Shown here piece after piece: positions 3,087 to 60,605 of a stretch of DNA of 64,000 nucleotides (positions are counted from its first letter, which is position 1; each line of letters opens with the position of its first letter). The notes under the pieces are model-generated. The model worked only from the letters and a program-made list of their open reading frames with translations, was not told where the DNA came from and did not search any database. The translations under genes were made by a program, and so were the position numbers. Source of the stretch: Membranipora membranacea (Eukaryota; Bryozoa; Gymnolaemata; Cheilostomatida; Membraniporidae); NCBI GenBank assembly GCA_914767715.1, contig OU612065.1, positions 29,326,001-29,390,000 of the forward strand. The letters are read 5' to 3'.

Positions 3087-3647
3087 ATGTTTATGAGTTT
3101 CTCAATTTTACAGGCCAGTAAAAGTAGTCGACACTGCTGCTGTGCTTTTGGCTGTAGCAACACACCAATTAAGGATGCAAGCCTCACCTTCCACCGTTTT
3201 CCGCCTCAGCCGGAACGCCATGACAAATGGATCGAAGCAGTGTCCCGTAAAGATTGGAAACCGAGCACAAACTCTGTTCTATGCAGCAAGCATTTTGGAA
3301 AGGGTGCATACAGAGTGCCTCCTAACCTTCCAGGGAGACGGGCTATGCTCTACCCAAATGCAGTGCCTACTATGTTTCCGGAGTATCCTGCATATCTACG
3401 ACCCACACAACCCAAAAAACGTAGAGTGTTAAGCAGAGACGCTGCAAACCCCCCCCCCCCCCCCCCAAGTTCCAGCGCAGAAACTAGTGAGGATTTACAT
3501 ACTGAGCAAACAGATACAGTTCCTGCTGAAGCAGCAGAACCTGTAGTTCCAGATATACCCTTAATACTGAGTAGCGATGCGCCGCAGGAGGGGCGTGGGC
3601 AAAAGAAGACAACTCCTGAAGCCAAAGTTCCAAAACTAAGGAGGTGA
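3087..3647 (+). pseudogene. THAP-domain N-terminus of a P-like transposase, truncated by a stop
   Basis: The frame carries a THAP zinc finger, a C2CH DNA-binding module used by P-element transposases and THAP-family host proteins. It begins CCCAFGCSN, continues through FHRFP and W..AV.RKDWKP, and reaches LCSKHF, giving the C-x4-C...C-x2-H ligand order and the closing proline-rich strand. A polyproline run (codons around 3451-3467), an acidic linker and a basic tail follow. After the TGA at 3645-3647 the same frame continues with a Gln/Arg coiled-coil segment, as transposases do after the THAP finger, so the stop is probably a disabling mutation. The sequence ttttacag at about 3107-3114 could be a splice acceptor just before the finger, so a 5-prime exon may exist (an open stretch at 2783-2930 ends in a GTAAG donor). 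Confidence 0.75.
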
Positions 3648-4279: not shown

Positions 4280-4620
4280 ATAATGTATCAACGCTTACAG
4301 ATATTGCCGACTTCTAATGGTTGTATCTCATTCAATATTTAAGCTAGAGAAAATATTCAGAGAATATGGCGTTGCTTGGTACATCACCTTTCAGATAAAA
4401 TTAACTTGTAGGCATCGGTCTACGATATCTCTATGAGAAAAATGCCATTATAGCTAATAATCAGTCACACTCATATAGTAAAACCATTCCTTGCAGCATG
4501 CACTGTGCACAACACAGTATCGTTGTGTCATTGGGGAATTCCAGTTATTATAGGCCTCACTGCTCACTGTATAAGCTCTATATCTGTCACCTGTCTAGGT
4601 TTATTATTAGTAGGTCTATG
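4280..4620. repeat. Right terminal inverted repeat of the P element
   Basis: Inverse complement of 2115-2443. It carries a short extra segment near 4562-4590 that is absent from the left arm. Confidence 0.8.
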
Positions 4621-4628
4621 GGTCTAGC
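4621..4628. repeat. 8-bp target-site duplication, right copy
   Basis: GGTCTAGC directly follows the ...GGTCTATG terminus and matches 2107-2114 exactly. Confidence 0.8.
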
Positions 4629-5636: not shown

Positions 5637-8600
5637 ATGAGTGTTGATTGTACCTCCGATGACTGCCTTACCTTTGGAGTAATCAGCGATATTCAGTATG
5701 CTGATCACGATGACTGTCTTACTATATACGGTCCAGTCAAAACTCGATACTACAGGCATGGACTGAGTCATGTTCGAAGGGCTACTGAGGAATGCATAGC
5801 TGAAAATTGCCAGTTCATGTTGCAACTCGGTGATCTAATTGATGGTAAAAGCAGGTGGGAGTCTGAAAAAGCATTAGGAGCTGTTATGGATGTTATAAAT
5901 GATTCCAAAATCAAATTTCATCATACATTAGGCAACCATGAGCTGTACAATTTCAAACATTCCGAAGCAGTGACCAGGCTAATCCACACTGATAGCCTCT
6001 CAGAGAAAGCTTATTATGCCTTCGAGCCGAGACCCAATATTAAGATCATTAGTATGGACACGTATGATCTATCAATGAATGGACGACAGGCCACAGACCC
6101 GCACTACGAAATGTGTAAAAAGTACCTGTCTAAAAACCCAAATGAAGACCTGAACAGCCCGGAAGGTTTGGAGGGGCTCGACATGCGCTTTGTCAAGTTC
6201 AACGGTGGTGTAAGTAGTGAACAACTGAAATGGCTCTCTGAACAACTTGCAGATTCCGATGAGCGGAAGCAGAAAGTGATAGTGTTTGGTGAGTGATTTT
6301 TGAGATATCTTATTTATTTGGTATGGTATCTGTACATTAAAAAAAATGAAATAATTGATTATTTGTCGCAAAATTAAATAAATATCACCTGTTTGAAAAG
6401 ACAGTAATGATTATAAAGCTATAAGGTTGTGTTGAAAAGAAATTTACATAAATAATAACATGAGCAGTAATAAGTTATTAAAATGTATGAATTATCAGGT
6501 TTTTGCATTTGACATTCTGAGCATAAAAAATATACGACTAAAGCACCATTTAAAAGGTTTGTAAGTGATCATTATCATTGCACATGTATTTATAATTGTC
6601 ACAATGGCCTCATTCATAGTTTGTCTGGCAATTCCTGAGAAAAAAACTCAAATTTTCACTTTTGGGATGGCAGAGACCACTATGGTGGTTTCAGTTTGAG
6701 ATTCCATGCCTTATTTTGCTAGTAAAGATAATTTCTATGACTTTATTGGGGTAAGCATTTCCGTGATTCTCCATCATGCAAACATACTAGGCCATAGCAG
6801 CACCTTGAACTTCCGCGACCTATGCGGCACTGCAAAACATAATCAAAATCATCTCGATTAGGACGGATACATAGATATAAGCGTGTACCTGCATATAATA
6901 TGGACGGAAGTTGATCGGAAGTTGATCGACGTTGGACCTATTTAGCTATTATATTATATTATACTAAACTCCTTGTTAGACATTCTAGTGCCTTTTGTCA
7001 GTAATGAAATTAACTAAAGTTTCATTGTGTCAACTTTTGAGAGGCTATCTTTACATCTTTGTCATGGATTCACTGACTCATGCTTTTGTTGGGCAACTTT
7101 CCTGGGCGCCATTGAATTTAAAACCAAAATCATGACATGCTTACTAGTGGACTAATAACAAGAAATCAAACACAGGTGTTGTTTGGGTAGAATCTCACAG
7201 CAATTAAAATTTAGTTAATTGGGATAATTAAATTATGCTGTTTGTAATATAAACCGCAAACACCAAATACTTTGGCCTAGGAACTTGACCACAAGTTGAA
7301 GTACAATCAATTTTTTATTTCTCATGGCTGATTTTTGATGTCTTTGGTACATCTCTGCGGATAACCACATTTTCAGTATGAATGACAGATTGTCTGAGTT
7401 TTTGTCTGTCGATAATTTTGAGTAGGTAAAAGTTCATAAATTATACCTCTAGCTCCACTATTGATCTGACTCAACAAACAACTTGTTATGCCTGACAAAC
7501 CTCACGTTTTTGTGCTGCCATAACAAGGAATCCTGCTGTTCCGAGAGTTTTTGGTCTTGAAATTTGTCATTGTTCACTAATGAGATTAGCACAAACTGAG
7601 ATTTTATTACGCCAAATAAGGACTTAATTTGAATTTGAATGCGTTGGGAGAGCATGAGACTGACTTACCGGTGATCCGTGCTGACGACATCTCTTGTGTG
7701 AACCGATGTCTCTACACTGGCCGTTGTGGCAATTATCGCTGCAACAATCATACCGCGACGTGCACTGTAACAAAATAAAGGGTGTGCGGGTTAAAATTGT
7801 TTTTTTTGGTAAAAAGCATTTGAAAGAAACAGTTTCGGGCATGACCAAAAAGCAAACTGGTGCCATCATCAGTTAGATCAAGGAGTTAGAGACAACTCCT
7901 TGGTTAGGTACTCCCACATACACTAGGTTGTGTTGTGGTTCCTTATCTGAAATGTTACATCCGGTATAGGTTCACAGGCTACACCCATCATGTATGTTAT
8001 GATAATTTTGTAGTATACAGTGGTATGAAACGAAAGATAATGATAGCCAAAATTTTTGCCTCAGGAATGATTTGCAAACAGCTGAGGCACCTGCGTCATT
8101 TATATTTCACAACAGTCATTGATACAAATTTTAGAAACCAAAATATGCAGGATAATCGAGTATTACACCACATCAATCCAAATTGCTGTGCCAACCCTCC
8201 ATCAACTTTTCATCACATTTTTCCTAAGTAAAAAACATCAATATTTGCTGTCTTTTCATTTAGTGAAATTTGAACATGGGTTCAGACTAAGAGTACATTT
8301 CTGCATTATTGCGTACGTACGTGAATACTGTCAAAATATTGTCAAAACCGGGGCCATGGAAATAATGAACATAATGAGTATATATATTGTGTAAGCTGGT
8401 TAATTCAGACAAGGAAAATTGGTCCCTTCAATCAGATCTCAATGCATTCTAATGTCACTTTGCTTAATTAGAATTAATTTTTGTGGTCTCCAGAGGTTTG
8501 AATTAAGTGAACTGCACTGTATATGCTTACCGGTGCATGAGTGTTCCTACACCCTGTCACGGTCTTACTGCTGACAACCGCTGACAGGATAACTGCAACT

Positions 8601-10328
8601 AGCATGGTGGCAGCAAGTATCTGAAGACTCGATGCCATTTTACGTGCTAGTGTATATATCTCAAAAGTTACCGGTCAATTTCTGAAACAGTACAATGAAC
8701 ACGTCAGAGAATGAGGAAAAAACGAATGAGCATCTGGGAAAGCGCGTTAGAAGAAGGAGGAAGCACAGCATTGTTCAATAGCTAAAAATATAAAATCCCC
8801 CCACCGTAACTTGACAAAGAGCTCAATTTACAACAGTTGCTATTTAAACATGTAAGCTTTAGCAAACAAAAACTATATCTTGTCTTCACCAAACAAGGAA
8901 TAAGGCCCTGTTACATTAGCTACTAGCGAAATGGAAGAGAAGAGAAGTATTTTTTACTGCACTTACATATGCTTATGATGTTCAGAAATGGCTATTAAAT
9001 AATATTACTTGTGTCTGTCTTTGTTACTTAACCAGTGCTGTCACTGCAGATTTGTGTTGTGTATGAGTTGAGTGTATTGTGGTGACTGTATGTTTATTGT
9101 GGTGTTCTTACCTATTTATACATGATGCTGCCTTGGTCGTGACATAGACCAATCATAACATGTTTGTATCGTTCCCATGGTAATGTTTTTACTATGGAAT
9201 GATAGAATGCAGTGACAGTGTGTAAATGGAATGAATCATAGGTATTGCGAAATCTGACTATGAATGAATAATTTCTGTTGATGTCAGGAGTATCAATTTT
9301 GGTGGTCATTAGATTGATGGTATTGAATGTCTAGATGACATCACAGAGTAAGGATATATCCTTACTCTGTGATGACATGTTTGGGCAAACAATATCATTG
9401 TTTTCATAATTTTGTTGACAGAAAATTATTTTGCAAATTGTGATTGTACATCAATATTTGTTTTGGTTTAACTTCCTTCCTGTGTCAAATTTAAGCTCCC
9501 TGTAACAACATTATAAATAGCTTCTCCGAATAATAGCCAATTTTATAAAAGCCAATGAGATCAACATAATCCACAAGAAAACTTTTATTATATTCCATAT
9601 ATTTATTCGGGTTTCATATGTCAAACCGAATGATTTATTTATATTCATTGCCGTGTGTGGTCAATTGGCAACATGAAGTTGACTGTATATAACCAGGAAC
9701 TGACTTAATAATCTCTAAGAATAGTATAATTTAGATCTTTATCGTCTCATGCTCAATTTAGAAACCCAGCAGAAACAAACAGAGACTGGTTGAACATAAA
9801 CGTATTTATATGTTTATGGTTTTAAATAAGCTTGCAATATTGTTTGCAGATTATTATATATATTGTTTGCACAGAAATGATGAATGGACAGATTACAACA
9901 ACTCAGGGTGTTCTGGGTTTAAGAAGTTAATGTTCTAAAACACATAAAACAATATATATATATATTAATATATTATGCACAATCGGATATTTGGATACAA
10001 ACTTGAACTAATGATATAGGTCATTCATTTTTCAGGTCATATAGGAGTCAATCCTGCCTCCACATCGCCGAGAACTCTGCTCTGGAACTATGAGGAAGTG
10101 ATGGATATACTCGAAGGCTCGCCGTGCGTGGTCGCTGTGCTGTCTGGGCATTACCACGCATTCAAGCATGCTGTTAGCCCTAACGGTAAACATTATGTCA
10201 GCTTCAAGGGGGTGGTTGAGACGCCCCAAACTGGCAAGGCTTGGGGTATTATAAGCCTAAGTTCTAAATCTATCAAGTTCAAAATACATGATAATGATAA
10301 GACAGTGGAATGGGAAGCCAGTTTCTGA
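5637..10328 (+). CDS. ADPRM: Manganese-dependent ADP-ribose/CDP-alcohol diphosphatase
   Basis: Two exons, join(5637..6288, 10036..10328), encode 314 residues. The first ends in phase 1 at a GTGAGT donor and the second starts after ttttcag; joining them restores FGHIGVNP, the family's conserved segment. The protein is a calcineurin-like metallophosphoesterase that hydrolyses ADP-ribose, CDP-choline and related compounds in the cytosol, clearing free ADP-ribose. Visible metal-site motifs are SDIQYAD (D18, D23), GDLIDG (D66), GNHE (N100, H101), FGH (H219) and GHYH (H256, H258). NYEEV and GVVETP towards the end are also family hallmarks. Length is close to that of vertebrate ADPRM. The start ATG is the first in frame. 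The 3.7-kb intron hosts an antisense gene. Confidence 0.92.
6743..8638 (-). CDS. Secreted double inhibitor-cystine-knot (knottin) protein, nested in ADPRM intron
   Basis: Three exons on the minus strand, complement join(8531..8638, 7669..7764, 6743..6829), encode 96 residues; the stop TAA is at 6743. Exon 1 gives a hydrophobic signal peptide (about residues 1-24). The mature part has twelve cysteines in two consecutive six-cysteine sets: C-x6-C-x5-CC-x3-C-x4-C, then C-x6-C-x8-CC-x4-C-x8-C, both fitting the inhibitor-cystine-knot pattern. Both introns are phase 0 and fall just before the second cysteine of each knot, after a Pro codon, with near-identical donors (CCG|GTAAG). The gene therefore looks built by duplication of a knot-plus-intron unit. 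Knottins are extracellular disulfide-rich proteins acting variously as protease inhibitors, channel ligands, toxins or antimicrobials; nothing here says which. No free cysteine remains, supporting the model. Confidence 0.82.
7879..7903. repeat. CAAGGAGTT palindrome
   Basis: CAAGGAGTT...AACTCCTTGG, close arms with a short spacer. It is the same family as 20629-20650 and 45306-45336. Confidence 0.6.
8398..8523 (-). repeat. MITE-like dispersed repeat (TACAGTGCAGTTCAC end)
   Basis: Matches the inverse complement of 58225-58371: shared blocks are TTAATTCAGACAAGG, ATCTCAATGCATTCTAATGTCACTT and AATTAAGTGAACTGCACTGTA. The right end is intact (TACAGTGCAGTTC in inverse) but the left end is eroded. Confidence 0.6.
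9340..9373. repeat. Perfect 34-bp palindrome, TCACAGAGTA family
   Basis: Two 17-base arms, ATCACAGAGTAAGGATA and its inverse complement, meet without a spacer. Related copies are at 27647-27684 and 63603-63620. Confidence 0.7.
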
Positions 10329-30681: not shown

Positions 30682-31762
30682 CTAATCACGAGCCATGGTG
30701 ATGACAGACTGATTAGTTTTCTTTGCTTTCTCAATGTGCTTGAGGTGCTTTTCAAGCACTTCTTGATCACCATACATTAGTGATTCCATTTTTTTCAACC
30801 TTGCCTCAGTGTCAGTAGTATCAAGTCCATCAGCTTTTTCCTTGACTATGCGTTTCTTTAGTTGTTCCACTTCCGAAACAGGATTGAAGACGACATTGTC
30901 TCTTAGAAAATCATCAATATCGTTCTCCTCTCGAAACACACAAAAATATAACATAAAAGCTGTCAAACTGACCAGAACTACATAGCTTTCATACCAGGGT
31001 CCAATCCTTTGTTTTGGGTTCACAAAGCTTTCAGCCGCGTTTCTGTCTGCCTTACTCCCTGAAAACCTAACAGGCTCATCAGTGATGAATTCTTTCTGTG
31101 TTGTATTAGTAGTACTTATCCATCTGAAAAAAAAGAACATTATTATCAAGCTAGCAGGGGGAAGGCTTAATTATCTGTTGCGGGAAATGAATGTATATAC
31201 CATGTCATAAAAGGAGTTTGCTACTAGAGTATCGAACTTGCATTTAAATTAAGCATGACGCACATTTGAGTAACCACATGAACATGGCTTAACACAGTTT
31301 GGAATCCTTAAGTGTAATTATCTCTATGCCTAGAATTCACAGGAAGCTTTAAAAGAGCTACATACATTGACCATTTTAAGTTATAGTATGGACACTTAGA
31401 ATTAACATTAAGAGGCCCTCATTTCAAATGCCTCTAGCTACCTTTGATTCACTGTACACGGACAGAGGAGGTAATTACAGAAATTTATATAGTCCATAGA
31501 CTGATTAATCTTAATTAATTATGCAAAAAACAGAATACTTCCTTCAACACAGTGTAGGTAAATCATCAATAAAAAGAAATTCTTTACATATCGTCTGACT
31601 GTTAACTACTCACCGACAGCTTTTTAAGGTATTTGGTGTGTTCGGCTCGTTGTGTTGACTATATATGAACACACTTGGCTTGTGTCCTATTGTTGAAAAT
31701 GGTCTCGACGAACATAAATAGTGCAGCTTGCGAGCCTGTCTGGTACAACACTGGAATATCAT
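30682..31762 (-). CDS. UQCC4: UQCC4/CCSMST1-like mitochondrial complex III assembly factor
   Basis: Two minus-strand exons, complement join(31614..31762, 30682..31123), encode 196 residues; the split CG|A codon is restored across a GTGAGT donor and tttttcag acceptor. The first exon is Arg/Cys/Ser-rich without acids early on, as in a mitochondrial presequence. The core has DEPVRFSGSKA (65-75), matching the conserved DEP-[IV]-x-FS-x-SKA box, then one membrane segment at about 97-113 followed by FREENDIDDFL, also conserved. UQCC4 is a small inner-membrane protein needed to assemble ubiquinol-cytochrome c reductase. The C-terminal 60 residues form a Lys/Glu-rich helix or coiled coil that makes this protein longer than the vertebrate ones. 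Family assignment is from remembered motifs. Confidence 0.68.
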
Positions 31763-33401: not shown

Positions 33402-36400
33402 ATGTCTGATGAGGAATTGGATGAGGGGGGAAATAACTTCCTACCGGACAACATCCCAGAAGAGGACGTCATAAAAATATTAATATCTACAGACAATCAT
33501 ATCGGCTATAATGAGAAATGTGAAGTAAGGGGACAAGACTCCGTAACAGCATTTGAGGAGGTTCTCTATCATGCTAAAAAGCAAGATGTTGATATGATAT
33601 TACTTGGTAAGTTGCTAAGATCGCTTTTTATTAGGTATGATAGTGTGACACTGAAGACAGAGTCATTATTATATTATATTTTATTATATATTATTATAAG
33701 TTATCTGTATTCATATATCAGGAAACCTGTGCATACCTAGAACAATTTTGTTCCCTTTTTGTCGGCAGTGGGATATTGCAAGAGAAGGTTATAAAGGCGC
33801 AACCCAAAACACATGTATACGGCCCTGTGTTATGTTTTAATAATGTTGGCGGATGATAATAAAATAAATATCACTTTTCTGTTTGATCATTAGGTGGTGA
33901 TTTGTTTCATGAGAATAAGCCGTCACGTCGCATGGTGAACTCTACCATTGAGCTGCTCAGGAAGTATACTATGGGAAACAAGCCATGTCAGATCGAGTTC
34001 CTCAGCGACCAGAGTGTCAACTTCAAACACAGTAAATTCCCATATGTGAACTATGAGGATCCGAATCTCAATATATCATATCCTGTCTTCTCCATTCATG
34101 GCAATCATGACGATCCAAGTAAGTAAGAGTTTAATGGTGATCAATAAGCTATGATACTTTTATCACTTCGATGAGAGGCTTGAGGCCACTGATATGTAAA
34201 CATATATGGCCTTGAATATTTGGCAATTTATCTATGGTTGCTAGAATACATTTCTGGAATTAGATTGTTCTACACTGCAGGCTCAGTAATGCCACAACTG
34301 AACACTTTTAAACTTGTGCCAAGCAGGGTCACTGGGTTTTTTAAGGTTGTTACTGGGACGTCAGTCAATGCAAAGCATAAAACTGCCAGATCTTTAGCTT
34401 TAGACTCAAAGTTATTTACAAACTTTATTTCTCCACATATAGTCATACTGTGTATTTTACCGCTTAACCATGAACTGATAGATCACATTGTCTCATATTT
34501 TCAGGTATTGGCAATCTATGTGCACTTGATGTTCTCAGCTCTACTGGTCTGATCAACTACTTTGGGAAATGTGATACAATAGACAAAGTAGAAGTGTCCC
34601 CTTTACTACTGAAGAAAGGAGCCACAAAGCTCGCGCTGTACGGATTGGGCTGTATCAGAGATGAGAGGCTACACAGGCTGTTTGAGCAACAGAAAGTAAA
34701 GATTGTCAAACCTAAAGAAGAAACCGGCTCGTGGTTCAATCTATTCACCATCCATCAGGTTTGTGACCTTTATTGGTACTCATGTAAAAAACTCGATTTC
34801 AACTCTTTTGGTGGTGATCAGTCACTACAAAGGTTCAACAGTCAAAGTGTTCTCGATTTGAATATTGATTTACATATATTTATCCTCTGATGATCAGATT
34901 AAACTCCCTGCTGTCACTACTTTCATAAACTTTACATTCAAATGTATAGTTATCTAAATATGTCAGAAAATCTTTCAAAGGTAAAAATTTTATTTCAAGT
35001 TACATTTATCTGTATACCATTCTAGAACCGAGCCAAACATGCGCAAAAGGATTACATCCCTGAAAGTTTTCTGGGAGATTTTCTTGACTTTGTTTTGTGG
35101 GGTCACGAGCATGACTGCCGAATCGATCCTGAATTTAACGGGAATTTCTGGGTGTCTCAAGCAGGAAGTAGTGTGGCAACCTCACTCTCAGAAGGTAGGT
35201 TTAACTGTGTAATGGAATTTGGTAATTAGTACAGGTGCAAAAGACCCTTTTGTACCGCCCTGAGAAGTGCACCTGAAGTTTTAGAATCTTTCTAAAGTCA
35301 AATATCGCGTTCAAGCTCTTTCTGTTTGGCGTCATATTATGTTCAAGTTAAATTCTCTTTCTGTTTAAAATGTTACACACAAAGAGTTGTAGTAACTTTC
35401 GAATATAAGTATGAATTTATTATAATATAAAGTATGAATTTGATTGTTTTGAATGTGATTCACTGTCCGACTCATGACTGCATCACCCTGTTTTGAGATG
35501 GTTTAGAGTGATTGTATCTATAGTAGGAGCATGCGACATTGAAGTATAATGACATGTAAAAAATTTCCCACAATGCATCACCAACTAAAGAATTTTTTAA
35601 TATAATCAATGTCTTGACCTCCCACAAAAGCTCATCATTATGGATTATGGGTTACTTTTCAACATGCACTAGCCTTTGACTCTATATCATTACAGGTGAA
35701 TCCAAACACAAACATTGTGCCTTACTAAAAATACACAAGAAGAACTTCAGCTTACAGAAGATTCGCCTAGAGACAGTTAGGCCTTTCTACTTTGAGGATG
35801 TTGTTCTCTCCTCAACTGATATTAAACCAGAGATATTCCACGAGAAGAAAGTCATTAAATATTGTAAAGAAAGAGTTGAAGCTCTTATCAGGCTATCTAT
35901 AGAAGAACATACGGGTCACAGGTAAGTTATGCTATGATTTTTTTTCTGGTATCTCTTCATGGTAGCCTGTCTTTACAAGCTTGTCAAGACAGGCTTTAGT
36001 GATCAATGCTTTTGAAGCTTAAAAAAGGTTTTGTGCTTATAACATACCATTATAACCATTGATATGAATATTTATATCAATGATTATAACCCTTATACCT
36101 TATACCCTTACTTTTAGCCCCACTTATAATTTTTGGCACTGTCCAACAAATATTCAGATTTAAATATGATTGGTTAGAAGGTTTAGCATTGTGTCAGATG
36201 AGGTAAGAGAATTCAGAATAAACGGGAGACTGCTAGCTCGAACTAATTTGAAGACCGACAGGTTTTGTTATAGAAAATGAAAAATTATATTTCAGTATTG
36301 TCAGAACAGAAATGTTAATAATTCTCCTTTCCTTTAGGAATCAGCCAAACCTGCCATTGATCAGATTACGGGTAGATAACACAGGTGGCTATGAACTTTT

Positions 36401-39077
36401 CAACACAGTACAATTTGGACAGCAGTTTGTTGGGAAAGTAGCCAATCCAAAAGATACAGTATTATTCCATAAGAAGAGACAGGCCAGAGTAAGGGGTGAT
36501 ATACTTAATTTAGATGATGTGGAGGCACATGTATCAGAACAGAGCCATGAGACAATCGAGGAACTAGTCAACCTATATATGGGAACCGCAGCTGCCAAGT
36601 AAGTTGTAACCAGAGGCTCAGCGCAAAATAGCCTGTGGTTTCAAAATACACGTTACTGAACGTGGGCTAAGTGTCGACCAATATTATTAGGGATATTTAA
36701 ACATGACTATGTGGAATCAGGTAAAACTGAAATGGACCTACCTGCAAAATTGCAAATATGATTAGATATTGGTGACTTCACTGGGTCACTTGTGCGATCC
36801 AAACCTATTATCTTTAGGGCTATTCAAAGAGTGAGTAACTCCTATTTCAAATTGTTCATCACTAAACATATTTGATTTTCAGTGATACTGATACTTAATT
36901 ACTTTTGTTCTGATTGGTGTTATGAAAGCATTCAGATACTATCTGCATAACTAACATTGACATATGTACACCCTGCTGTAATCCTTTTATTTTGCTTATA
37001 TCTTAAATTTTTAGAGGCTCATTGAAAATGGAGGCCTTGAGTGAAAGAGGGATGGGGAAAGCCGTCGGTGATTTTGTGAAGAAGGATGATAATGATGCCA
37101 TCCTCAACATGGTCAAGTATCAGATCAAAGATCTCAATACTTCTATCAACGCTGTGAGTTTATATAACATTTCTCGTCTTTCAATGTTGTGGTGTGCCGA
37201 AAACATTGGTCATGTTCTTTGAAACAATTTTGTCCCATTGAGAAGGTTGAGTATGTGTAAATGGTACTGATTGTACCTCTGCTAAATTGTCTAGAATTTT
37301 GTTAATTTACATCCAAAGACAGAGTAATAGTGGTGCACTCAGTTCGCTTGTACGCTCCACCAACATGGCCCAGTATGCAGCCAGAATAGAACCCTTGCAT
37401 TTTAGGAGGCTGGCACTCTAACCCACTGAGCTATCTTCTACTCCTAAGGCCTCAGGCTTTGTGTTGTAGCAAGGTGTTGACAGAGATACTGATATACTTG
37501 ATGTGATCAAGAAAGTCAAAGAAGAAAAGAACAGGAAGAATCCAGTCGACCTTGACCTTGAGGTTAGTACACTCTCATATTCAGCCGACTCTTTGGTGCT
37601 ACTGTATATTTGATTTTAGATTTAGGCGCGGTTTTCGAAAACTGTGATTGTGAAATATTTTAGATTGTATGCTGAAAAGATAGTGTAGTATACAATGAAG
37701 TAAAAATACAATATTATTGCATTTTCTCAGCTTGTCTGTAGCTTTGTGTTATCTCATAGTAGTAAATACACTGATATGGTCACCTGTTGAGTGTTTTATC
37801 TGCCTCTTGTACTAACATACCCAGAGTTATTCTCTGACCTCTGTATGGTATCAGGGAGTTTGGGACCAAACTGTGTTGTTACACTTATACGTTACCCTGT
37901 TGCGTTTTTTCCGCGTCTTGTAGTATGCTCAGATGTTAGAAGTGAGTCAGAAGTCTCATACATACATCCCTCCAGATGAGGATGATCAGTCTGATGATGA
38001 TGTCACAGTATCTGAGCCCTTAAAGCCAGCCAGAGGTCGTGGGTCACGTGGAGGTCGCGGAAGCAGAGGAGGGCGTGGTAGTCGTGGAGGACGTGGCAGC
38101 CGTGGTGGGAGAGGCAGAGGTACATTAAAACTTTGGCCTGTTTCTAAATCTTTACGTTGTTAGCAGTTCTATTTTATCACAAACTGATTGAACACCAGTA
38201 ACAGCAGCAGTAAATTGTGAGAGGAAGTTGTCCCCTCTCATCCACTCCACAAGCTTGATTGTGTAAATTTTAGGTGTTTTCAAACCTCTTCTCAAGTTTG
38301 CAATTGAGAATATGTGATAACTAGATAATAATCAATAAATAATAATAATAAAACTCCCAATTTTAAAACATGTCTCTAAAATATTATTTACCATCACAAC
38401 TTTTGGTCTCAAGCTGCTAGGGCTACTAGATGAAATAATGGTCACTCATCTGTCTAGATAGATTAGATTAGATGCTCTTTTTGATGACCATATATCACTT
38501 TTTGAAGTTCAATTTCAGTGGAATAGTAGTCTACCCACACTGTTACCTCAAAATTTTGACTAGTCGTTAAGTGTTCACATATTACTGTTTATGATGAAGT
38601 ATATGTTTATTTTGTCAGGCTCCGCGAGCAGTAAGGCAGCGGCTCTGGCTGGTTTAACTGACAGTGATAGCGATGATGTCACAGTGGTGAGTGCCACGCC
38701 CCCTCCGGCAGGGCCTGTCAAAACTACGGCATCAAGTAAAAAACCTCCTATCAAAAGAAAAGGTACATAATGAGGAACTAATATTTAATACTATTTTCTG
38801 TTCGCAATATCAAGAAGATTTTTTTATGGATACTGAATTCATGAATTCCCTGCTCATTCCCTCTAATTTCACTCAAATCGACTTTTAAAAAGATCACTGC
38901 TGCATCAACAATTTAGCTGATATTCCTCCATGCTGACTAGTTTGATAAGAAATCATCCCAGCCCCAAGTTTTGTACTATCTGAAGTATGGATACATCTAT
39001 ATTTGACAGGAATCCTGGATGACAGCGATGATGAAGACGACTTTCTACCAGGGAAAAGAAGTTATAAGCGCCGATAA
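33402..39077 (+). CDS. MRE11: Double-strand-break repair nuclease MRE11
   Basis: Eleven exons, join(33402..33606, 33894..34118, 34505..34758, 35026..35194, 35696..35921, 36338..36598, 37015..37153, 37470..37562, 37924..38119, 38619..38762, 39010..39077), give 659 residues. MRE11 is the Mn-dependent nuclease of the MRE11-RAD50-NBS1 complex that processes DNA breaks in the nucleus. Phosphoesterase motifs are present: TDNHIGY (D31, H33), [12 protein letters not shown] (D71), HGNHDDP (N139, H140, D141) and WGHEHDC (H255, H257). [34 protein letters not shown] and LSERGMG are strongly conserved. Near residues 561-590 lies a GRGSRGG repeat, the Gly-Arg-rich motif methylated in other species. The acidic C-terminus ends KRSYKRR. 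Length is close to the vertebrate protein (about 700), the difference lying in the tail. Confidence 0.95.
34275..34475 (+). repeat. Dispersed repeat, copy 2 (MRE11 intron 2)
   Basis: Same orientation and block order as 19020-19205, with an added GCAAAGCATAAAACTGCCAG variant. It lies just upstream of the MRE11 exon 3 acceptor. Confidence 0.6.
35964..35995. repeat. 32-bp AGCCTGTC palindrome, near-perfect
   Basis: AGCCTGTCTTTACAAG immediately followed by CTTGTCAAGACAGGCT: one mismatch and no spacer. It is in MRE11 intron 5 and is the cleanest copy of the family. Confidence 0.75.
37340..37448 (-). mobile_element. tRNA-derived SINE in MRE11 intron 7
   Basis: On the minus strand GATAGCTCAGTGGGTTAGAG (A box) is followed by AAGGGTTCTATTCTGG (B box). 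It is related in layout to the SINE at 27404-27591. Its 5-prime end lies about 20 bp from the exon 8 acceptor. No clear target-site duplication seen. Confidence 0.6.
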
Positions 39078-51928: not shown

Positions 51929-54900
51929 ATGTCTACCTCCGTGCAATCTCAGCAGCTTAATCAAGGTAGGTGACAAACATATTAAATACTTTAAATTTTT
52001 CTCAGCTTCGAAAATATCGATAGGAAATTTGTTGAGATCGAAAGCCAAGAAATGAACCGTATTTGGCTAGGTGGTAGATCTTGTCTGAAAATTGAAATTA
52101 TATTGGCATCCTAAAACCAAGGAGCTAGGTTGCCTTCAATTTGATCCTCAAATCTAACTTTATTCACTGGCTGCTAATTAAACTCTGGGACAGCCTGACT
52201 CTGGCCGATAAAACCAAATTGAAATCCTAAAACCGAAATGTGCCTTGTTACTAGTTTGTTTTGTGTTTTTGCGTATATATAATATCCAAACATATCATAT
52301 ATATAGAACTGAAAGTTACTAATACTATTGTAGATCCTGAGTCAGGCAAGGCAGCTACAGGGGTAAGTTAATTCTATCACATATAGGTTAGTCAAAATTA
52401 AATCAAAATTGATCGAAAATTCCTAATGGAGTTTAAGTGAAATTTGACCTCTGTATAGCAGTTAAAAATGTCCGCTTTATTGAATATGTATAGCAAAATG
52501 GACTGGACTTCTCTTCATATTCCATAGCATAGTAAATCCCTACATATATGTCATAGGAAATTGATTATCAGCTGTCGCATAAGCCTGTCTGATAAGCGTG
52601 TCAAGACAGGTTACTGCCGCATTTGATGGCAAAGCCTGCGTGCCTTCATGATCCAGGAAATTGATGAATTAATGGACTCCAAGGTGAGGACACTTGTTCC
52701 CATCATTGCATGAGGGTGGTCGATTATTTGAATTCACTAAAGGAGTTGTCCTTCATTTTGATGCAGAAGGTAACTCTTAACCAATGATGTAAAGACGCCT
52801 GTGACCATTTATGATTGCACTGGTCAGCTCTATGACAAAATTTTCACTATATAGACTACATTTGCACAATAATTCTTCACTTGCAGGGATCAGTCAGCTC
52901 AGACTACCTGGGGTTTTCTATCTTCACCTGTCTTTGCTGTTTTTTCTGTGTCGGTATTCCGGCTCTGATTAAATCAGTAGATGTGCGCGATGCTAATAAG
53001 AGAGGGGATTCCAGCAAAGCTGCAGCTTCCTCAAGAGAAGCTCTGCTACTAAACAAGATAGCTTTAGGTAAGTTTGGCTCTCTCCAATCAGCCATTAGAG
53101 GATTTAGAGGGTTAGCCTTCTGACCAATTGCTCCTCCCAGCCCTTACTTCTTAAAAAAGAAATTGTAAAGCAAAGCAATTCAGGATTTGTTCCTCTGATT
53201 TCTTAAAGTAGATACAAGTTGAAACAAATTTGTATTCATTATTCATTATCGTTTTATACTTGAAAAAAAATTGGGTCATCTGTGCTTTGAAACAAGTTGA
53301 TTTCCACACATCCCGAAAGCCTGAATCAGCCTTCTGAACCTTAGTAGGAGGAGCAACTGCTAATAGAATTTGACTACTTTTAGGCGGATATTGAGAAAAT
53401 GAACATAGACAATAGAGGTAGAAAAATTTGACAACAGCCTATTTCATGGATGTGTTTTTTCTTATCTGTTTTTGATACATCAATGGTACTCCACAACACA
53501 TTTTGTGTGTGGAACATGCTCTATCTATGTACCTTATGACACTGCGTTTCATACCCAAGAATTGTTGGATAATTCTGTACAATTCTGTTCGAAACTGACC
53601 CATATATCATTACCCAACCAGCAACCATTATTGTGTAATTAACCCTGCCTGCTAAATAAATTACATTCATTATTGCTATTGTATAGTTATAATATAAGCC
53701 TTTACAGTTCTAGTCAATATTTTATAATTGGATTGACATTGTATTCAATGAGTTTGTATTTAGATGACCAGGCAAGATCTCCTGTAATAAATAGATATTG
53801 CTGTGCAAGGTAACATCAAAGTCTATAACGTGGGAGGCCCAGGTTCAAATCCCCGCCAAATCCCCGGGCAAATCTTTTCTTTTCGTCATGATGGAAATCG
53901 AAAGCATTCCATTCGAATTGTCCGCTCACAATTTTTGTAAACACAGAAAACTCTTAGTAATGAGTATGATGACCCGACAAAATACTTATGTGCAACTCTT
54001 CTGTGTTGTACCATACCCTACGTTGCATTTTGTGCAATCTTTTAATATTGGCAGCAACTGCAGTTTGCAGCCAAGAGCATGTACATAAGAGCAATTTTGC
54101 TCTTATGTACATGCTCTTGGCTGCAAACTTGCCGAATCACACAGATTGTACTTGTTAATTTAATTTTGACACTCCTTTAACACTCCTTTGGCACTCCTGC
54201 CCTGATGAAGTCATTTTTTGGAAATGAAAAATTCCCTAGAAAATTCGCTCTATGTACATGCTCCTGGCTGCAAACTTGCCGAATCACACAGATTGTACTT
54301 GTTAATTTAATTTTGACACTCCTATAACACTCCTTTGGCACTCCTGCCCTGATGAAGTCATTTTTTGGAAATGAAAAATTCCCTAGAAAATTCGCTCTAT
54401 GTACATGCTCCTGGCTGCAAATTCCAAATGACATATTATTTCAGGTATACTAACCAGCTAATATGTCATTTGGAATACACAGTATTGGATTGATTTTGTC
54501 CTAGTTAAATCGAATTATCATCAGTGTCATACTTTTCACTTCATTTTCAAAATTAAATTGGCAAGTACAATCTGTGTGATTCGGCAAGTTTGCAGCCTAG
54601 AGCATGTACATAGAGCGAATTTTCTAGGGAATTTTTCATTTCCAAAAAATGGCTTCATCAGGGCAGGAGTGCCAAAGGGGTGTTAAAGGAGTGTCAAAAT
54701 TAAATTAACAAGTACAATCTGTGTGATTCGGCAAGTTTGCAGCCAAGAGCATGTACATAAGAGCAAAATTGCTCTTATGTACATGCTCTTGGCTGCAAAC
54801 TGCAGTTGCTGCCAATATTAAAAGATTGCACAAAATATAACGTAGGGTATGGTACAACACAGAAGAGTTGAACATAAGTATTTTGTCGGGTCATCATACT

Positions 54901-55452
54901 CATTACTAAGAGTTCTCTGTGCTTACAAAAATTGTGAGCGGACAATTCGAATGGAATGCTTCCGATTTCCATCATGACGAAAAGAAAAGCTTTGCCCCGG
55001 CGGGGATTTGAACCTCGGCGTCCCACGTTATAGACTTTGATGCTACCTTGCACAGCAATATCTATTCATTACAGGAGATCTTGCCTGGTCATCTAAATAC
55101 AAACTCATTGAATACAATTATATATAAAGGCTTCATTCAATCCAATTATATATAAAGGCTTATACTATAACTATACAATAGCAATAATGAATGTAATTTA
55201 TTTAGCAGACAGGGTTAATTACGCAATAATGGTTGCTGGTTTGGTAATGATATATGGGTCAGTTTCGAACAATTCTAGAATTGTACATAATTGTCCAACA
55301 ATTCTTGGGTATGAAACGCAGTGTGAGACACACGATAGCCCATTTTATTTTATTTGACAGGTGTTGGCATTGCAATACATGTCATTTGGATACTAATTGT
55401 GATTATTGTTGTATCTACTGGTGCTGCGTTCCTTACCGGTGCAATCGGCTAA
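51929..55452 (+). CDS. CD225/dispanin (IFITM-related) membrane protein 1
   Basis: Four exons, join(51929..51965, 52334..52362, 52887..53067, 55361..55452), encode 112 residues. The CD225 domain begins at DYLGFSIFTCLCCFFCVG (28-45), a re-entrant or membrane segment with clustered cysteines likely to be palmitoylated. It continues through the basic/acidic loop IKSVDVRDANKRGDSSKAAASSREALLLNKIAL, the family's most conserved stretch, and ends in a C-terminal membrane helix (about 84-108). The N-terminus is Ser/Gln-rich and cytosolic. CD225 proteins affect membrane fluidity, fusion and trafficking; vertebrate IFITMs belong here, but no immune role can be deduced. The third intron (2.3 kb) hosts a 1.8-kb foldback. 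A polyadenylation signal AATAAA lies at 55491, only 39 bp past the stop. Confidence 0.85.
52582..52610. repeat. AGCCTGTC palindrome in intron 2, unit 1
   Basis: AGCCTGTCTGATAAGCGTGTCAAGACAGG. At the position equivalent to 58447-58475 in unit 2, so present before the duplication. Confidence 0.65.
53807..53860 (+). repeat. tRNA-like segment in left foldback arm
   Basis: GGTAACATCAAAG...GTGGGAGGCCCAGGTTCAAATCCCC: the end matches a pol III B box (GGTTCAAATCC). Similar to 10697-10747; the inverted partner is at 54990-55045. Confidence 0.55.
54113..54420 (+). repeat. Two tandem copies of a roughly 165-bp repeat
   Basis: TTGCCGAATCACACAGATTG ... TATGTACATGCTCCTGGCTG occurs twice in a row (from about 54127 and 54280), nearly identical; an inverted version lies at 54555-54740. 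Confidence 0.7.
54421..54476. repeat. Central palindrome of the foldback
   Basis: ATTCCAAATGACATATTA and its exact inverse complement (54459-54476) around 20 bases. Confidence 0.75.
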
Positions 55453-56528
55453 CAATGTAAGATGGCGGACATGCAGACAATGCAGTCACCAATAAAATGC
55501 ACTCTTCTTTATTCATAGAGAACACCATCTAAAGCTTTGTAATTCTGACTTGTATATCAAAATTCTCTAAGTTTTTTGTAAATCGCATGTATACATAAAC
55601 AAAAGTACAAAATAGCAAATAACCACTGTTGCAATCTATTCTGGAAATGCCATGATAGTTTTATTTGTGAGTAAATTTATAATGATTATACTCTCCCAGT
55701 TATTCTTTTATATAGATTATGCATGATTGCTATAAAACTCAATAAAACTGTGTCATAATGAAAGAAAAGAAAAATCGGTTAACATATACAGTGGCCACAC
55801 AATCATCGCCATAGATTAAAATATTATAATTTGTCCAATTTTTTGTTATATGTCTGACTCGAAAATTATCGGCAGAGAGCACTTGATTGATTACAATGAT
55901 GGTGGAGAGCAGTGGATATGATATATTCCAACTGATATTTATTGCCCTAGCGACTATATTCTAGATCTAGAAACAAATATGTTATTATTATGTCAAACTT
56001 TTTGCTTCACTGCGTAGCTATGATCACAGGGAGACAGCAGTTATTATCAATACTATTGTCCTAGTTACAAAACTAGGCTTGGATACCAATTATATTATTT
56101 ATCATAATAGTTTCTAATCGTTGATTTGACCATACTTCGATACTTCAAAGCAGGAGTGCCTAGTCTGCATTAACACGATGCATTCGGTGCCTTTACCAAA
56201 TAGAGCTATAGGTAAGGGAAGGGCCATTTGTCTTTGACTATAGCCACTTTGCCTCTGTGATGTGTGGTGGGCACCATCACATTGGTTAGCCCTGACGTCT
56301 TTTTAGAGTTGAGGTGAAATTTGAGTTAGTTGATTATAACTGTCTGAAAGTCACATGCCTATTTTTGATTTTTTGTTGATTTCGAAACAATGTTAAACGC
56401 TCAATGTGCGCCCTGTATTTATGTGATCAAATGTTCTTATAGTTTGGAGCAAACTGGTACCATCTTTATACCAGACACTACCTACAATCTTGTGATGTAA
56501 TTATAGTTGCACACTAGATAATCTAGTG

Positions 56529-56688: not shown

Positions 56689-59583
56689 ATGTCGGACTCC
56701 GCGCAATCTCAGCAGCTTAATCAAGGTAGGTGGCAAACATATTTTTCCTATTGTGTTTATTATTAAGTTGTAGAAGTTGGTCAGCATCTGCTTTGCAAGG
56801 TAATGTCAAAGGCAAAAATTTTGTTGAGATTGAAAACCCAGCGGTCAGATGGCAGGTCTTGCCTGCAAATTGAGAAAATTTCGTCTGTCACCCTGAAACC
56901 ATGGTGCACGGTTACCTCCGGTTTGAAGCTTGGTAGGGGCACCAAATGTCCAGTAGTATAGTCAAATCAATTCGATTTAATGACTTTTCTGTTTGCCCGG
57001 ACATAATAAAAAATTTGAATTATCTCTTCACTCCACTGCCCTGCATGTCTCAAGTTATACTGACAGTGGTTGAATTATCATAGAATAAAAGACATTACAT
57101 CAATCTGCTGGAGGTTAAAACTTTGACAATCTGATACAATTCAAATGTCTCGGCACTCAAATTTGAGGAGGGTTAGCTGAGATTGTGTTCTGGTGCATAT
57201 AAACAATGAAACTGTGGCGTCAAATACGGCTGTACTGGATGTTTTTGCTGACAAAAAACTTATGTCTATTACTCAGATGAAGCTATGTGGATATAGCTGA
57301 CAATGTAGTTGAAGAGAAATTATCTGCTATCATGCACTTCATCTACGAAGACTTAGTTATAGACATAGAAGAATTGCTTCCTTTGCTTTCCATCCATTAC
57401 TACGCCTAGCCTCACATTCCTCATCCCAAACTTAGTAAATCCCAAATCTAGTATTCTTATTGAAGTCGAACTTAACATTGGCTGCTTGGTAAATTCTAGC
57501 CAATAAACACTAATGGCTGGTGCACATTGTCCCAGACGGCCATCACAGATAGCCATCCCAGTCAATGTGAACATGAAAACGACACAATCCCAGACTGTCT
57601 GGGTCCGTCTGGGACAGTAACAGGAAAGTTCGTAAGCATCAAACTTTCCCGATGCTATCCCAGACGGACCCAGGCTCATTTTACATCTGGGTGCTATGTG
57701 AACCAGACATTTGGATGATCTGGGATCATCTGGGACGATCTGGGTCGATCTGGGACCATCCTAAACAATGTGAACATTATCCCAGCACTATCCCCGACAA
57801 AAACCTAATTGCTAGTCTGGGATGGATTTTATAATGTGAACATAAGACTGGGACCATCTGGGATAAGCATCTGGGATGGCATCCCAATGACATCTGGGAC
57901 AATGTGAACCACCCTTAAGTGTTGCTATAAATAGAACTGAGCCGTTCTAATAGTTTGTTTTATTTAATGCTCCATAAATAAAATCCCCACCACATGATAT
58001 ACGGAACTGAAAATGACTTACTATTTTGTAGATCCTGAATCAGGAAAGGGAGCTGCAGGGGTAAGTTAATTCTATCACATATAGGTGACTCAAAATTAAA
58101 TCAAAATTGGTCAAAAATTCCCAATTGAAATTAAAATTTGAATGGTGTATAGCAGTTAAGAATGTGATTATGACTTTAGCTACGCATTTTTGAGTATGTA
58201 CAGACTGGAGATTATCTACATACAGTGCAGTTCACTTAAAAGGCCCACAAAAAGCGGAGTCTGAATTAAGTGACATTAGAATGCATTGAGATCTGAATTC
58301 TGACAGAGGGACCAACTTTCCTTGTCTGAATTAACAGGAGTTTTGAATTATAAAGCTAGAATTACACTGTATTCCATAGCATAGTATATCATACTTAAAG
58401 CACCCTTCATATATATCATCAAAAGTTGATTGTTAGCTGTCGCATTAGCCTGTCTAGATAAGCTTGTCAAAACAGGTTACTGCTGCACTTGATGGGTGAG
58501 GTAAATTTCATGAAATCATAATGGCTTTATTACAATAAACTACTACTTTGGTCCAGGGAGTTGATGAATTTATGGACTGCCAAATGTGCATATGTGTTCC
58601 CAACATTGTGGTTGAAGTATTTGTAGTGAAGGAGTTGTCCTTTTATTAGGAAGCAGTAGATAACTCTTAACAAGTACTGTAAAGAAACTTGAAACCACAC
58701 TTATGATTGCGCCGGTCAGCTCATTATATTCAACACATTTGCATAATATTTGATTGCAGGGATCAGTCAGTTCAGACTATCTGGGGTTTTCTATCTTCAC
58801 CTGTCTGTGCTGTTTTTGGTGTGTCGGTATTCCGGCCCTGGTTAAGTCTGTAGCAGTGCGCGATGCTAATAAGAGAGGGGATTCCAGCAGTGCTGCAGCT
58901 TCCTCAAGAGAAGCTCTGCTACTAAACAAGATAGCTTTAGGTAAGTCTGGACCTCGCCAACCAGCCAATCAGCTCTCGCCAATCAGCCATTCGAGGATTT
59001 AGAGGGTTAGCTAGCCGACGATTAGCTCTGATTGGCTTGTGGGTGTCAAAGAGCCAATGCCAGGTCAGATGGTACTTTCCTGAAAATACCTATATACATT
59101 ACAGTGAGTGTTTCACTTTCATTGCATCTCATTAGGTGCTCTCTGTGACCTGGCATTGGCTATCCTTTCCCACCCAATAGCCAATCATCAGAACACATTT
59201 GGTATGGGTTAGCCCTCCTCTACTTTTTAAAAAAAAAGGATCATAAAGCAAAGGAATTCAGGACTTAATCCGCTGATTTCTTAACGTTGATAATAGTATT
59301 TACAAGTCGTTGCGAATTTATACTTGAAACGAATTGGCTCATCTGTGCTCAGACAGCTTCAATGTAAGTTAGTGGCATTACGTTATCAACCATCCATTTT
59401 TGTTTCCATGTCTGAGCACTTAGACTAGCTATATATGCAAATAAACAGCCGGCAGCCTCTTATAGACTCTCGATAGCACTTTTTTTTACAGGTATTGGCA
59501 TTGCAATGCATTGCATCTGGATACTAATTCTGATCATTATTGTATCTACCGGTGCCTCGATCCTCACCGGTGTATTCGGCTAA
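56689..59583 (+). CDS. CD225/dispanin (IFITM-related) membrane protein 2
   Basis: Four exons, join(56689..56725, 58032..58060, 58760..58940, 59492..59583), have lengths 37, 29, 181 and 92, identical to gene 1, and encode 112 residues. The CD225 core is almost the same as in gene 1, with Trp for Phe inside the cysteine cluster (CLCCFWCVG) and VKSVAVRDANKRGDSSSAAASS in the loop. The last helix differs more (MHCIWILILIIIVSTG). It is a tandem paralogue. Unlike gene 1, no AATAAA is found at the matching place after the stop (reads AGTGGAGAAATGC), so polyadenylation must use another site. Confidence 0.85.
57510..57920. mobile_element. TIR element with TCTGGGA-type internal repeats
   Basis: The ends GGTGCACATTGTCCCAGAC and GTCTGGGAC-like ...CTGGGACAATGTGAACCACC are inverted. 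The interior is packed with CATCTGGGA / TCCCAGA words in both orientations. It lies in intron 1 of dispanin gene 2 and is absent from gene 1. The ORFs across it are repeat artefacts. Confidence 0.65.
58225..58371 (+). mobile_element. MITE with TACAGTG...CACTGTA ends
   Basis: Left TACAGTGCAGTTCACTT and right AATTACACTGTA are inverted; TA at both ends suggests the Tc1/mariner type. It is about 147 bp with no coding capacity, in intron 2 of dispanin gene 2 only. Partner copy at 8398-8523. Confidence 0.62.
58447..58475. repeat. AGCCTGTC palindrome in intron 2, unit 2
   Basis: AGCCTGTCTAGATAAGCTTGTCAAAACAGG; equivalent position to 52582. Confidence 0.65.
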
Positions 59584-60605
59584 CAATGTAAGATGGCGGG
59601 CACGAAGCCAACGCAGTCACCAGTGGAGAAATGCACTCTCTTTATTCATAAATGAAAATCTGCTATGTATGTTCTTTTTTATGAGCGTCAAGAACACCAT
59701 TGAAAGCTTTGTAATTCTATCAGTTTATGTCCGCAACAAGTATGTTTTATTCCTAAACAAAGAAGCACAAAATAACATGGTCGATTTCAAAATATTTTGT
59801 TGCACTCTATTCTGGAAACATCATGATAGTTTAATTCATGAGAAATTTTCTGTGTCAGTTACATAGGTTGACATCACAATAATATGGTCATCAAAATACT
59901 GAAAAGAATCCAGGAAGGTGTTGCAATTTCAAACAGCCAAAATTGCAAATCGCAATCACTCAGTGAGTGAGCGATACCTGCTAGGCTCTCGCCCCAAATC
60001 ACTCAGTCATGTTTTGAGCGATGTGATAACTTGCCTTAGTAAATCATCACTATTTCTAATTGAAAGACCCCCCTGAGAAGTTTTTAAAAGTATGTTGTGA
60101 TCAATAGGACGGCAGTATTGAATTGGTGTGTGAAGAATGGGATGTGAGGTTATAATGAAGGTCAAAATACTAAAAGTAAAAGTTCTGATCTAATCTAATG
60201 TACTTGAATGACATCTCTTGGTGTGCCCCAGTTTGAGTTTGGCAAACTTAGGGCTACAATGGTACACTCTCTCTCTAAAGAGGTGATATTGAGTTGTGTC
60301 TTGTGTATATGTCTTGACGTTGTTATTGCATTTATGAATCTCATTGGATTATTCTACGCACAAACTATTACCTGCCAGGCAGTTGGTGACACAGGAGTCG
60401 AGAGTTAAGGTCGATTAGAGGAGCATCCTTGATTGTTTGTTCCACATCACTGCATAAATATCACAGGGTTAGATGGGTAGGTTTACTCTCTAACACAATT
60501 GCTAGAAAATAAGGTCAACAAATACATTATGTAGTATGACGGCCTGATCTGATAGCTTTGGAAATTCCAGGCTGATGATGCATAGGAAAAAGAGTGACCT
60601 GTTCC

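Follow-up and report, generated by a model that had tools for sequence, protein, structure and literature searches.

A predicted two-knot inhibitor cystine knot gene of three exons, nested antisense within an ADPRM intron

The window (the whole 64-kb stretch of DNA analysed here) contains a two-exon ADPRM gene on the plus strand, whose intron holds a complete three-exon gene on the opposite strand. That the nested gene encodes two knottin-like modules is well supported by its anatomy. The two genes are laid out as follows.

5637-6288, plus strand: ADPRM exon 1, placed by a Metallophos match (E = 5.7e-9, open frame 5637-6296) and by alignment to the solved chain 2nxf
6289-10035, plus strand: ADPRM intron, 3,747 nt, phase 1, GTGAGT...TTTCAG, enclosing the entire knottin gene on the opposite strand
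10036-10328, plus strand: ADPRM exon 2, placed by the 2nxf alignment of the joined product
8531-8638 (8638-8531), minus strand: knottin exon 1, 108 nt, with the start codon, signal peptide, spacer and cysteine 1 of knot 1, placed by its translation and donor
7765-8530, minus strand: knottin intron 1, 766 nt, phase 0, GT-AG, interrupting knot 1 just ahead of cysteine 2
7669-7764 (7764-7669), minus strand: knottin exon 2, 96 nt, phase 0-0, with cysteines 2-6 of knot 1, the linker and cysteine 1 of knot 2
7690-7713, minus strand: linker between the knots, eight residues in translation, ending in Lys-Arg (7690-7695)
6830-7668, minus strand: knottin intron 2, 839 nt, phase 0, GT-AG, interrupting knot 2 just ahead of cysteine 2
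6743-6829 (6829-6743), minus strand: knottin exon 3, 87 nt, with cysteines 2-6 of knot 2, ending in TAA
6742-6747, minus strand: AATAAA, a putative polyadenylation-like signal overlapping the stop codon

The joined ADPRM exons encode 314 amino acids that align to 2nxf in one stretch across the junction (E = 2.3e-54), while the open frame of exon 2 alone reached no Pfam family. All three knottin exons fall on the minus strand inside 6289-10035, in agreement with the nesting claimed in the preliminary description. Since nested genes are common in animals (PMC8467205, PMC13309782), we do not take the antisense arrangement as the main point. No RNA families or tRNAs were found in the 64-kb window, and the CpG observed/expected ratio is 0.49.

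Every knottin exon is a multiple of three in length and both introns are in phase 0. The donors, GTAAGC for intron 1 and GTAAGT for intron 2, rank second and first among 210 GT sites; the acceptors, TTACAG and TTGCAG, are both only middling, ranking 21 and 43 of 183. Acceptor-like sites also occur near 8681 and 8733, where a possible 5' untranslated exon might be joined. The exons have a GC content of 48-53% (53.1% for exon 2 and 48.3% for exon 3) versus 35-36% for the two introns (35.6% and 35.2%), and just 0.25% of host-intron 96-mers, with the knottin exons included among them, are as GC-rich as exon 2. The spliced product is 96 amino acids long, comprising a signal peptide of approximately residues 1-24 (cleavage site placed by eye), a five-residue spacer and two C-C-CC-C-C arrays, with its 12 cysteines at residues 30, 37, 43, 44, 48, 53, 62, 69, 78, 79, 84 and 93. 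The loop lengths are 6,5,0,3,4 in module 1 and 6,8,0,4,8 in module 2, so that each follows the cysteine order of an inhibitor cystine knot (ICK). The complete gene described earlier, with GT-AG sites, phase 0 throughout, a signal peptide and two six-cysteine arrays, is therefore borne out, and the position of the introns in the spliced product places both just before cysteine 2, as had been claimed.

The preliminary description also held that no single open reading frame reveals the gene, which is right insofar as the six-cysteine pattern matched neither knot in the open frames; the five-cysteine core of each knot is visible in one. The locus is thus an example of how an open-frame gene finder can miss such a gene. 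A linked pair of knot-core exons arose in 0 of 100 shuffles with both strands searched (0/200 strand-shuffles), in a test that scored five-cysteine cores only. For exon 3, the acceptor rule of that test demanded more pyrimidines than the true acceptor has, and therefore chose a site 23 nt upstream whose frame does not fit exon 2. Other cysteine-rich matches are present on both strands of the 64-kb window. The exon test kept one further place there, two overlapping matches at 55380-55442, which we rejected as a knot exon: they lie within a repeated stretch (55349-55517, 83.7% like 59480-59650) with no second core nearby. Should the nested gene not be expressed, its cysteine-rich stretches would be a decayed remnant or have come together by chance, and the middling acceptors would fit such an origin, as would the outcome of a search for relatives of the product in viral contigs, where seven stretches fit a pattern and none was confirmed. 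We consider this improbable in view of the open frames, the strong donors, the signal peptide, the exon GC content, the shuffle result and the agreement of the intron site with that of a published ICK family (PMC2853521).

All sequence matches of the product are weak, and none passed a curated cut-off. The closest Pfam family was Conotoxin_I2, with E = 0.0053 and 17.3 bits for the whole product and E = 0.00043 and 20.8 bits for module 1, against a cut-off of 27. Conotoxin (module 1, 8.8 bits against 25.1) and Toxin_19 (10.9 against 23.2) also fell short, module 2 matched no Pfam family, and there was no match in NCBIfam, a library for prokaryotes. Among solved chains, those nearest to either module are for the most part ICK peptides, at weak E-values: omega-conotoxins for knot 1 (E 0.49-0.99) and tachystatins B2 and B1 as the sole two matches for knot 2 (E 1.2 and 1.3). 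For the whole product the top chain is an unrelated receptor subunit (E 0.43).

A single compact domain with disulfides crossing between the modules, as in colipase, prokineticin or Dickkopf proteins, is the least probable of the readings we weighed. Dickkopf_N, at 13.4 bits below its cut-off of 25, was reached at E = 0.1 by the whole product and 0.22 by module 1 alone, and the ten-cysteine colipase-type pattern can be fitted to the cysteine spacing with two cysteines left over. Against this, each module has its own CC doublet, both first loops are six residues long and the introns fall at the same place, and neither Prokineticin nor Colipase appeared in Pfam at a limit of E = 10, at which the search filters drop most matches above 0.1. 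Two separate knots are the preferred reading, and each is predicted to have the ICK disulfide pattern 1-4, 2-5, 3-6.

The product is cationic, with 12 Lys/Arg versus 5 Asp/Glu, and its mature part would carry a net charge of +7 and five histidines, assuming cleavage after residue 24. There is no evident propeptide in the translation, and three residues follow the last cysteine. The linker Lys-Arg belongs to neither knot and immediately precedes cysteine 1 of knot 2. It may be a convertase site; cleavage there would release two independent single-knot peptides from one precursor, in place of the natural two-knot protein of the preliminary description, which uncut would have a mass of about 8 kDa. 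The mussel CRP-I precursors were identified through KR/RR propeptide sites, and cutting of the multi-knot forms was left open as a possibility by the authors (PMC10138031). In a protein this basic, however, such a pair need not surprise, and another, Arg-Lys, sits in the final loop of knot 2 (cysteines 5-6), where a cut has no obvious use. We place a two-peptide precursor, which would itself be a real gene and so shares in the odds of one, at somewhat under an even chance.

The closest published layout is that of the tachystatin-type ICK peptides naickin-1 to -3 of Nasonia and amickin-1 of Apis, where one exon encodes the signal peptide and cysteine 1, a phase 0 intron follows, and a second exon encodes cysteines 2-6 (PMC2853521). 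The same intron occurs twice here, as far as the published description of its place, rather than the exact residue, allows comparison; tachystatin B1, the template of the naickin models (PMC2853521), is also one of the two solved matches of knot 2. The gene differs from naickin and amickin in having two knots rather than one, with an extra 0-0 exon, and in lacking the proline-rich, basic extended C-terminus described for them (PMC2853521). Tachystatin-type genes are also listed in a sawfly and an ant (PMC10542623), although nothing on their introns was found in the parts available of that source.

The shared intron position and phase, together with this single-knot family, uphold part of the earlier proposal that a knot was duplicated along with its intron. 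If the introns were placed uniformly, they would coincide in 95 of 9,880 position pairs, and in one of 9,880 at this exact site. The similarity that such a duplication might have left was not found: the score between the modules was matched by 501 of 2,000 shuffles that kept the cysteines and by 172 of 2,000 full shuffles, the best global alignment fails to superpose the CC doublets, and the introns are not similar (score matched by 77 of 100 shuffles). As neither modules nor introns show any likeness in sequence, it is the layout that has to carry the case for duplication, and the same intron spot in each knot suggests that the knots multiplied by exon copying. The missing similarity and the unequal loop lengths would be accounted for if two unrelated single-knot genes, alike in layout, had fused, or if a two-knot protein had gained its introns later. 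Both are unlikely next to an intron site common to the two knots and first loops of equal length. Knottin loops also evolve quickly, and the two knots probably arose by duplication.

The motifs of VHv1.1 are reportedly cut by introns at like places. This protein and Cp-TSP13, which are ichnovirus and bracovirus cys-motif proteins, are likewise secreted cystine-knot proteins, and the reading frame of Cp-TSP13 has three introns, but their genes belong to symbiotic viruses of parasitoid wasps (PMC5012692). No statement on intron position in polydnavirus cys-motif genes was found in the accessible parts of the literature searched. The bivalent spider toxins of the Hc1a subfamily and DkTx resemble the present product in being secreted proteins whose two ICK modules are connected by a short linker. 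In the Hc1a subfamily, phase 1 and phase 2 introns precede a third exon that holds both knots, and there is a propeptide (PMC13172734), whereas here they are spread over three exons with phase 0 introns and no evident propeptide; for the DkTx species, no genome was available to the authors of that work. Mussel mCRP-I likewise carries several knottin arrays on a secreted invertebrate precursor, but unlike the present gene it has every array in its fourth and final exon and a dibasic propeptide site before the first; its authors called exon duplication not plausible there (PMC10138031). The remipede xibalbin 3, with two ICK-like domains per peptide (PMC11288129, PMC9950431), is known at the transcript and proteome level, and the main text of PMC11288129 contains neither the word exon nor the word intron. 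Both words are likewise absent from the main text of the SCREP review PMC6262176, and nothing on gene structure was found in the part available of PMC9865768.

Taken whole, the locus is best explained as a real, spliced gene for a secreted two-knot ICK protein nested antisense in the ADPRM intron, to which we give a probability of about 0.6. The splice anatomy, donor ranks, exon GC, shuffle result, weak ICK-type matches and net charge count for it; the weakness of those matches, the dissimilar modules and introns, the middling acceptors and the absent proline-rich basic C-terminal extension count against it. The simplest route to such a gene would start from a tandem copy of a tachystatin-type ICK gene, in which the first copy would lose its stop and the second its signal peptide, with the last exon of copy one and the first exon of copy two fusing into exon 2. 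The gene is presumably transcribed, and its product would be secreted, each knot folding around three disulfides. Whole or cut in two, the cationic product would function extracellularly, defence being its most likely role.

In silico, skipping of exon 2 would leave one complete six-cysteine array in frame. Because the two knots are interrupted at a matching point and exon 2, of 96 nt, begins and ends in phase 0, a switch between one and two knots by splicing is conceivable. We tentatively propose that exon 2 may serve as a self-contained knot cassette, doubtful as this still is, whose inclusion would give two knots, its skipping one and its copying more. Intron-mediated growth was weighed and rejected for their own genes by the authors of the Hc1a and mCRP-I studies (PMC13172734, PMC10138031). 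With a phase 0 intron at a matching site in each knot, the present gene would contrast with those genes, in which all knots share one exon. If the animal is not an insect, the common intron site would suggest an old, shared layout of animal knottin genes, and if the cassette reading is true, the gene would illustrate intron-mediated growth of a multi-knot protein.

The knottin gene, which encodes two six-cysteine inhibitor cystine knot (ICK) modules (knot 1 and knot 2), lies on the minus strand (8638-6743) and comprises three exons of 108, 96 and 87 nt, each divisible by 3. The two introns (766 and 839 nt) are both phase 0, with splice sites GTAAGC/TTACAG (intron 1) and GTAAGT/TTGCAG (intron 2). 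The spliced product of 96 residues opens with a hydrophobic signal peptide (~24 residues, by eye) and a five-residue spacer, and contains 12 cysteines with spacings of 6,5,0,3,4 in knot 1, 8 in the linker and 6,8,0,4,8 in knot 2. Intron 1 falls immediately ahead of cysteine 2 of knot 1, and intron 2 immediately ahead of cysteine 2 of knot 2. The preliminary description had claimed this anatomy (GT-AG sites, phase 0 throughout, a signal peptide and two six-cysteine modules, both cut at the same place), and all of it is confirmed in the sequence. An AATAAA motif (6742-6747, minus strand) overlaps the exon 3 stop codon and, if used, would leave a very short 3' untranslated region. Shortly before the start codon are acceptor-like sites at 8681 and 8733 (minus strand, scores 1.48 and 2.72). 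The first coding exon may hence follow an untranslated exon, or itself serve as a trans-splice acceptor.

The exons contain 51.9, 53.1 and 48.3% GC, against 35.6 and 35.2% in the introns, and, across all 96-mers of the host intron (the knottin exons counted in), 1.1, 0.25 and 3.3% reach these exon values. A linked pair of exons with a five-cysteine knot core occurred in 0 of 200 strand-shuffles (100 dinucleotide shuffles of the window), under a rule whose exon 3 acceptor lay 23 nt further upstream than the true site. Single knot-core exon candidates averaged 0.22 per shuffle (maximum 2). The real window, by comparison, gave four candidate starts at three locations, two of which are the knottin exons. 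Ranked by a generic splice matrix on that strand of the ADPRM intron, the donors are excellent (2 and 1 among 210 GT sites, for introns 1 and 2) and the acceptors ordinary (21 and 43 among 183 AG sites).

The host gene, ADPRM, is represented by two exons whose joined product aligns with 2nxf:

5637-6288, plus strand, ADPRM exon 1
10036-10328, plus strand, ADPRM exon 2

Residues 7 to 289 of the joined 314 align in one stretch (E = 2.3e-54) with 2nxf, a putative dimetal phosphatase of a family that we take to be ADPRM, and the sole solved chain up to E = 0.001. The intervening intron (3,747 nt, phase 1) is therefore well supported. As first described, the knottin gene is nested antisense, lying entirely within this intron. 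Excerpts of two papers present nested genes as common among animals (PMC8467205, PMC13309782), so nesting alone is not surprising.

Tachystatin-type ICK genes (naickin of Nasonia, amickin of Apis), as excerpted in PMC2853521, have a single-knot layout of a signal exon with cysteine 1, an intron, and cysteines 2-6. That intron site and phase are present twice in the knottin gene. Assuming uniform intron positions, 95 of 9,880 position pairs give both introns an equal module offset and 1 of 9,880 places both at this very offset, counts that were made once the site was already known. We take the repeated site and phase as the best evidence that the gene model is correct and that the modules follow the known single-knot layout.

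Exon 2 connects the end of one single-knot unit with the beginning of the following one. Tandem copying of such a unit, followed by loss of the first copy's stop and the second copy's signal peptide, would produce the present three-exon layout exactly. The layout and the repeated intron site and phase thus favour the earlier claim that a knot was duplicated with its intron, but the module and intron sequences resemble each other no better than shuffles. Module 1 aligns to module 2 with a score of 23, which 501 of 2,000 cysteine-keeping shuffles attain, as do 172 of 2,000 full shuffles; no similarity beyond base shuffles was found between the two introns (77 of 100 reach the score). With no help from either sequence, the doubling is therefore old, or else two different knots were fused.

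Spider Hc1a-type genes, in the excerpted text (PMC13172734), consist of three exons separated by a phase 1 and a phase 2 intron, with the entire mature two-knot peptide in exon 3, whereas each knot here is split by a phase 0 intron. Mussel mCRP-I genes, likewise in excerpt (PMC10138031), confine every knottin array to the last exon, and their authors judged exon duplication not plausible; here, in contrast, the knots are spread over three exons. Among the matches listed from the open-access literature, none was recognised as a multi-knot gene whose knots are interrupted by introns. The closest example of exon copying encountered for peptides of this type is Nasonia nasonin-6, whose defensin repeats occupy one exon each (excerpt of PMC2853521).

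Pfam Conotoxin_I2 was matched by the whole product (E = 0.0053, 17.3 bits) and by knot 1 alone (E = 0.00043, 20.8 bits), both below the cut-off of 27 bits; knot 2 alone reached no Pfam family. Among solved chains, the whole product retrieved 11 sequences up to E = 10, comprising seven omega-conotoxins aligned to knot 1 (E 0.49-0.99), GXIA (E 2.3) and three unrelated proteins (E 0.43, the top match, 0.56 and 0.98). For knot 2, tachystatin B2 (E 1.2) and B1 (E 1.3) were the sole matches. These matches are weak and none is sufficient singly, yet each half separately points to ICK peptides. Overall, confidence in the gene derives from its anatomy, the statistics and a single literature match.

Several repeats and genes were observed in and around the knottin gene. 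A ~120-nt repeat, 75.8% alike between copies, occurs at 8399-8522 (minus strand) in knottin intron 1, beginning 8 nt past the exon 1 donor, and at 58220-58335 (plus strand); it may be a small mobile element inserted into the intron. Inverted 22-nt arms without spacer (9335-9378, 95% complementary) in the ADPRM intron may mark one end of a small DNA element. Inverted repeat copies at 2114-2443 and 4280-4621 are 87% alike, with an additional diverged copy at 2463-2612. CD225 (IFITM/dispanin-like) exons, probably a tandem gene pair, sit in a duplicated block (roughly 50.2-53.2 kb and 55.7-59.3 kb, matching pieces 69-88% alike), and between the two blocks lies a large inverted repeat (53539-54316 / 54547-55324, 92.5% alike across 789 columns) with shorter copies within. 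The genes are:

3087-3647, plus strand, THAP domain gene (E = 3.3e-18)
30685-31170, minus strand, CCSMST1 gene (E = 2.6e-21)
36252-36599, plus strand, Mre11 DNA-binding domain gene (E = 3.5e-22)
52836-53120, plus strand, CD225 exon (E = 1.1e-17)
58754-58999, plus strand, CD225 exon (E = 2.3e-18)

After a cut at residue 24, the remaining 72 residues include 9 Arg, 3 Lys, 5 His, 4 Asp and 1 Glu, and the product is predicted to be secreted and cationic, with no evident propeptide. As Lys-Arg ends the linker, immediately preceding knot 2, a convertase could cut there and free two peptides; one two-knot protein and two single knots are about equally probable as the acting form. Because exon 2 is phase 0-0, its skipping would constitute a predicted one-knot/two-knot switch, the shortened transcript staying in frame with six cysteines spaced 6,8,0,4,8. 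Defence ICK peptides are described, in the excerpt of PMC2853521, as antibacterial, antifungal (tachystatin, Alo-3) or chitin-binding (tachystatin A), and by analogy with these, defence would be the likeliest role of the knottin product, with channel binding as the alternative.
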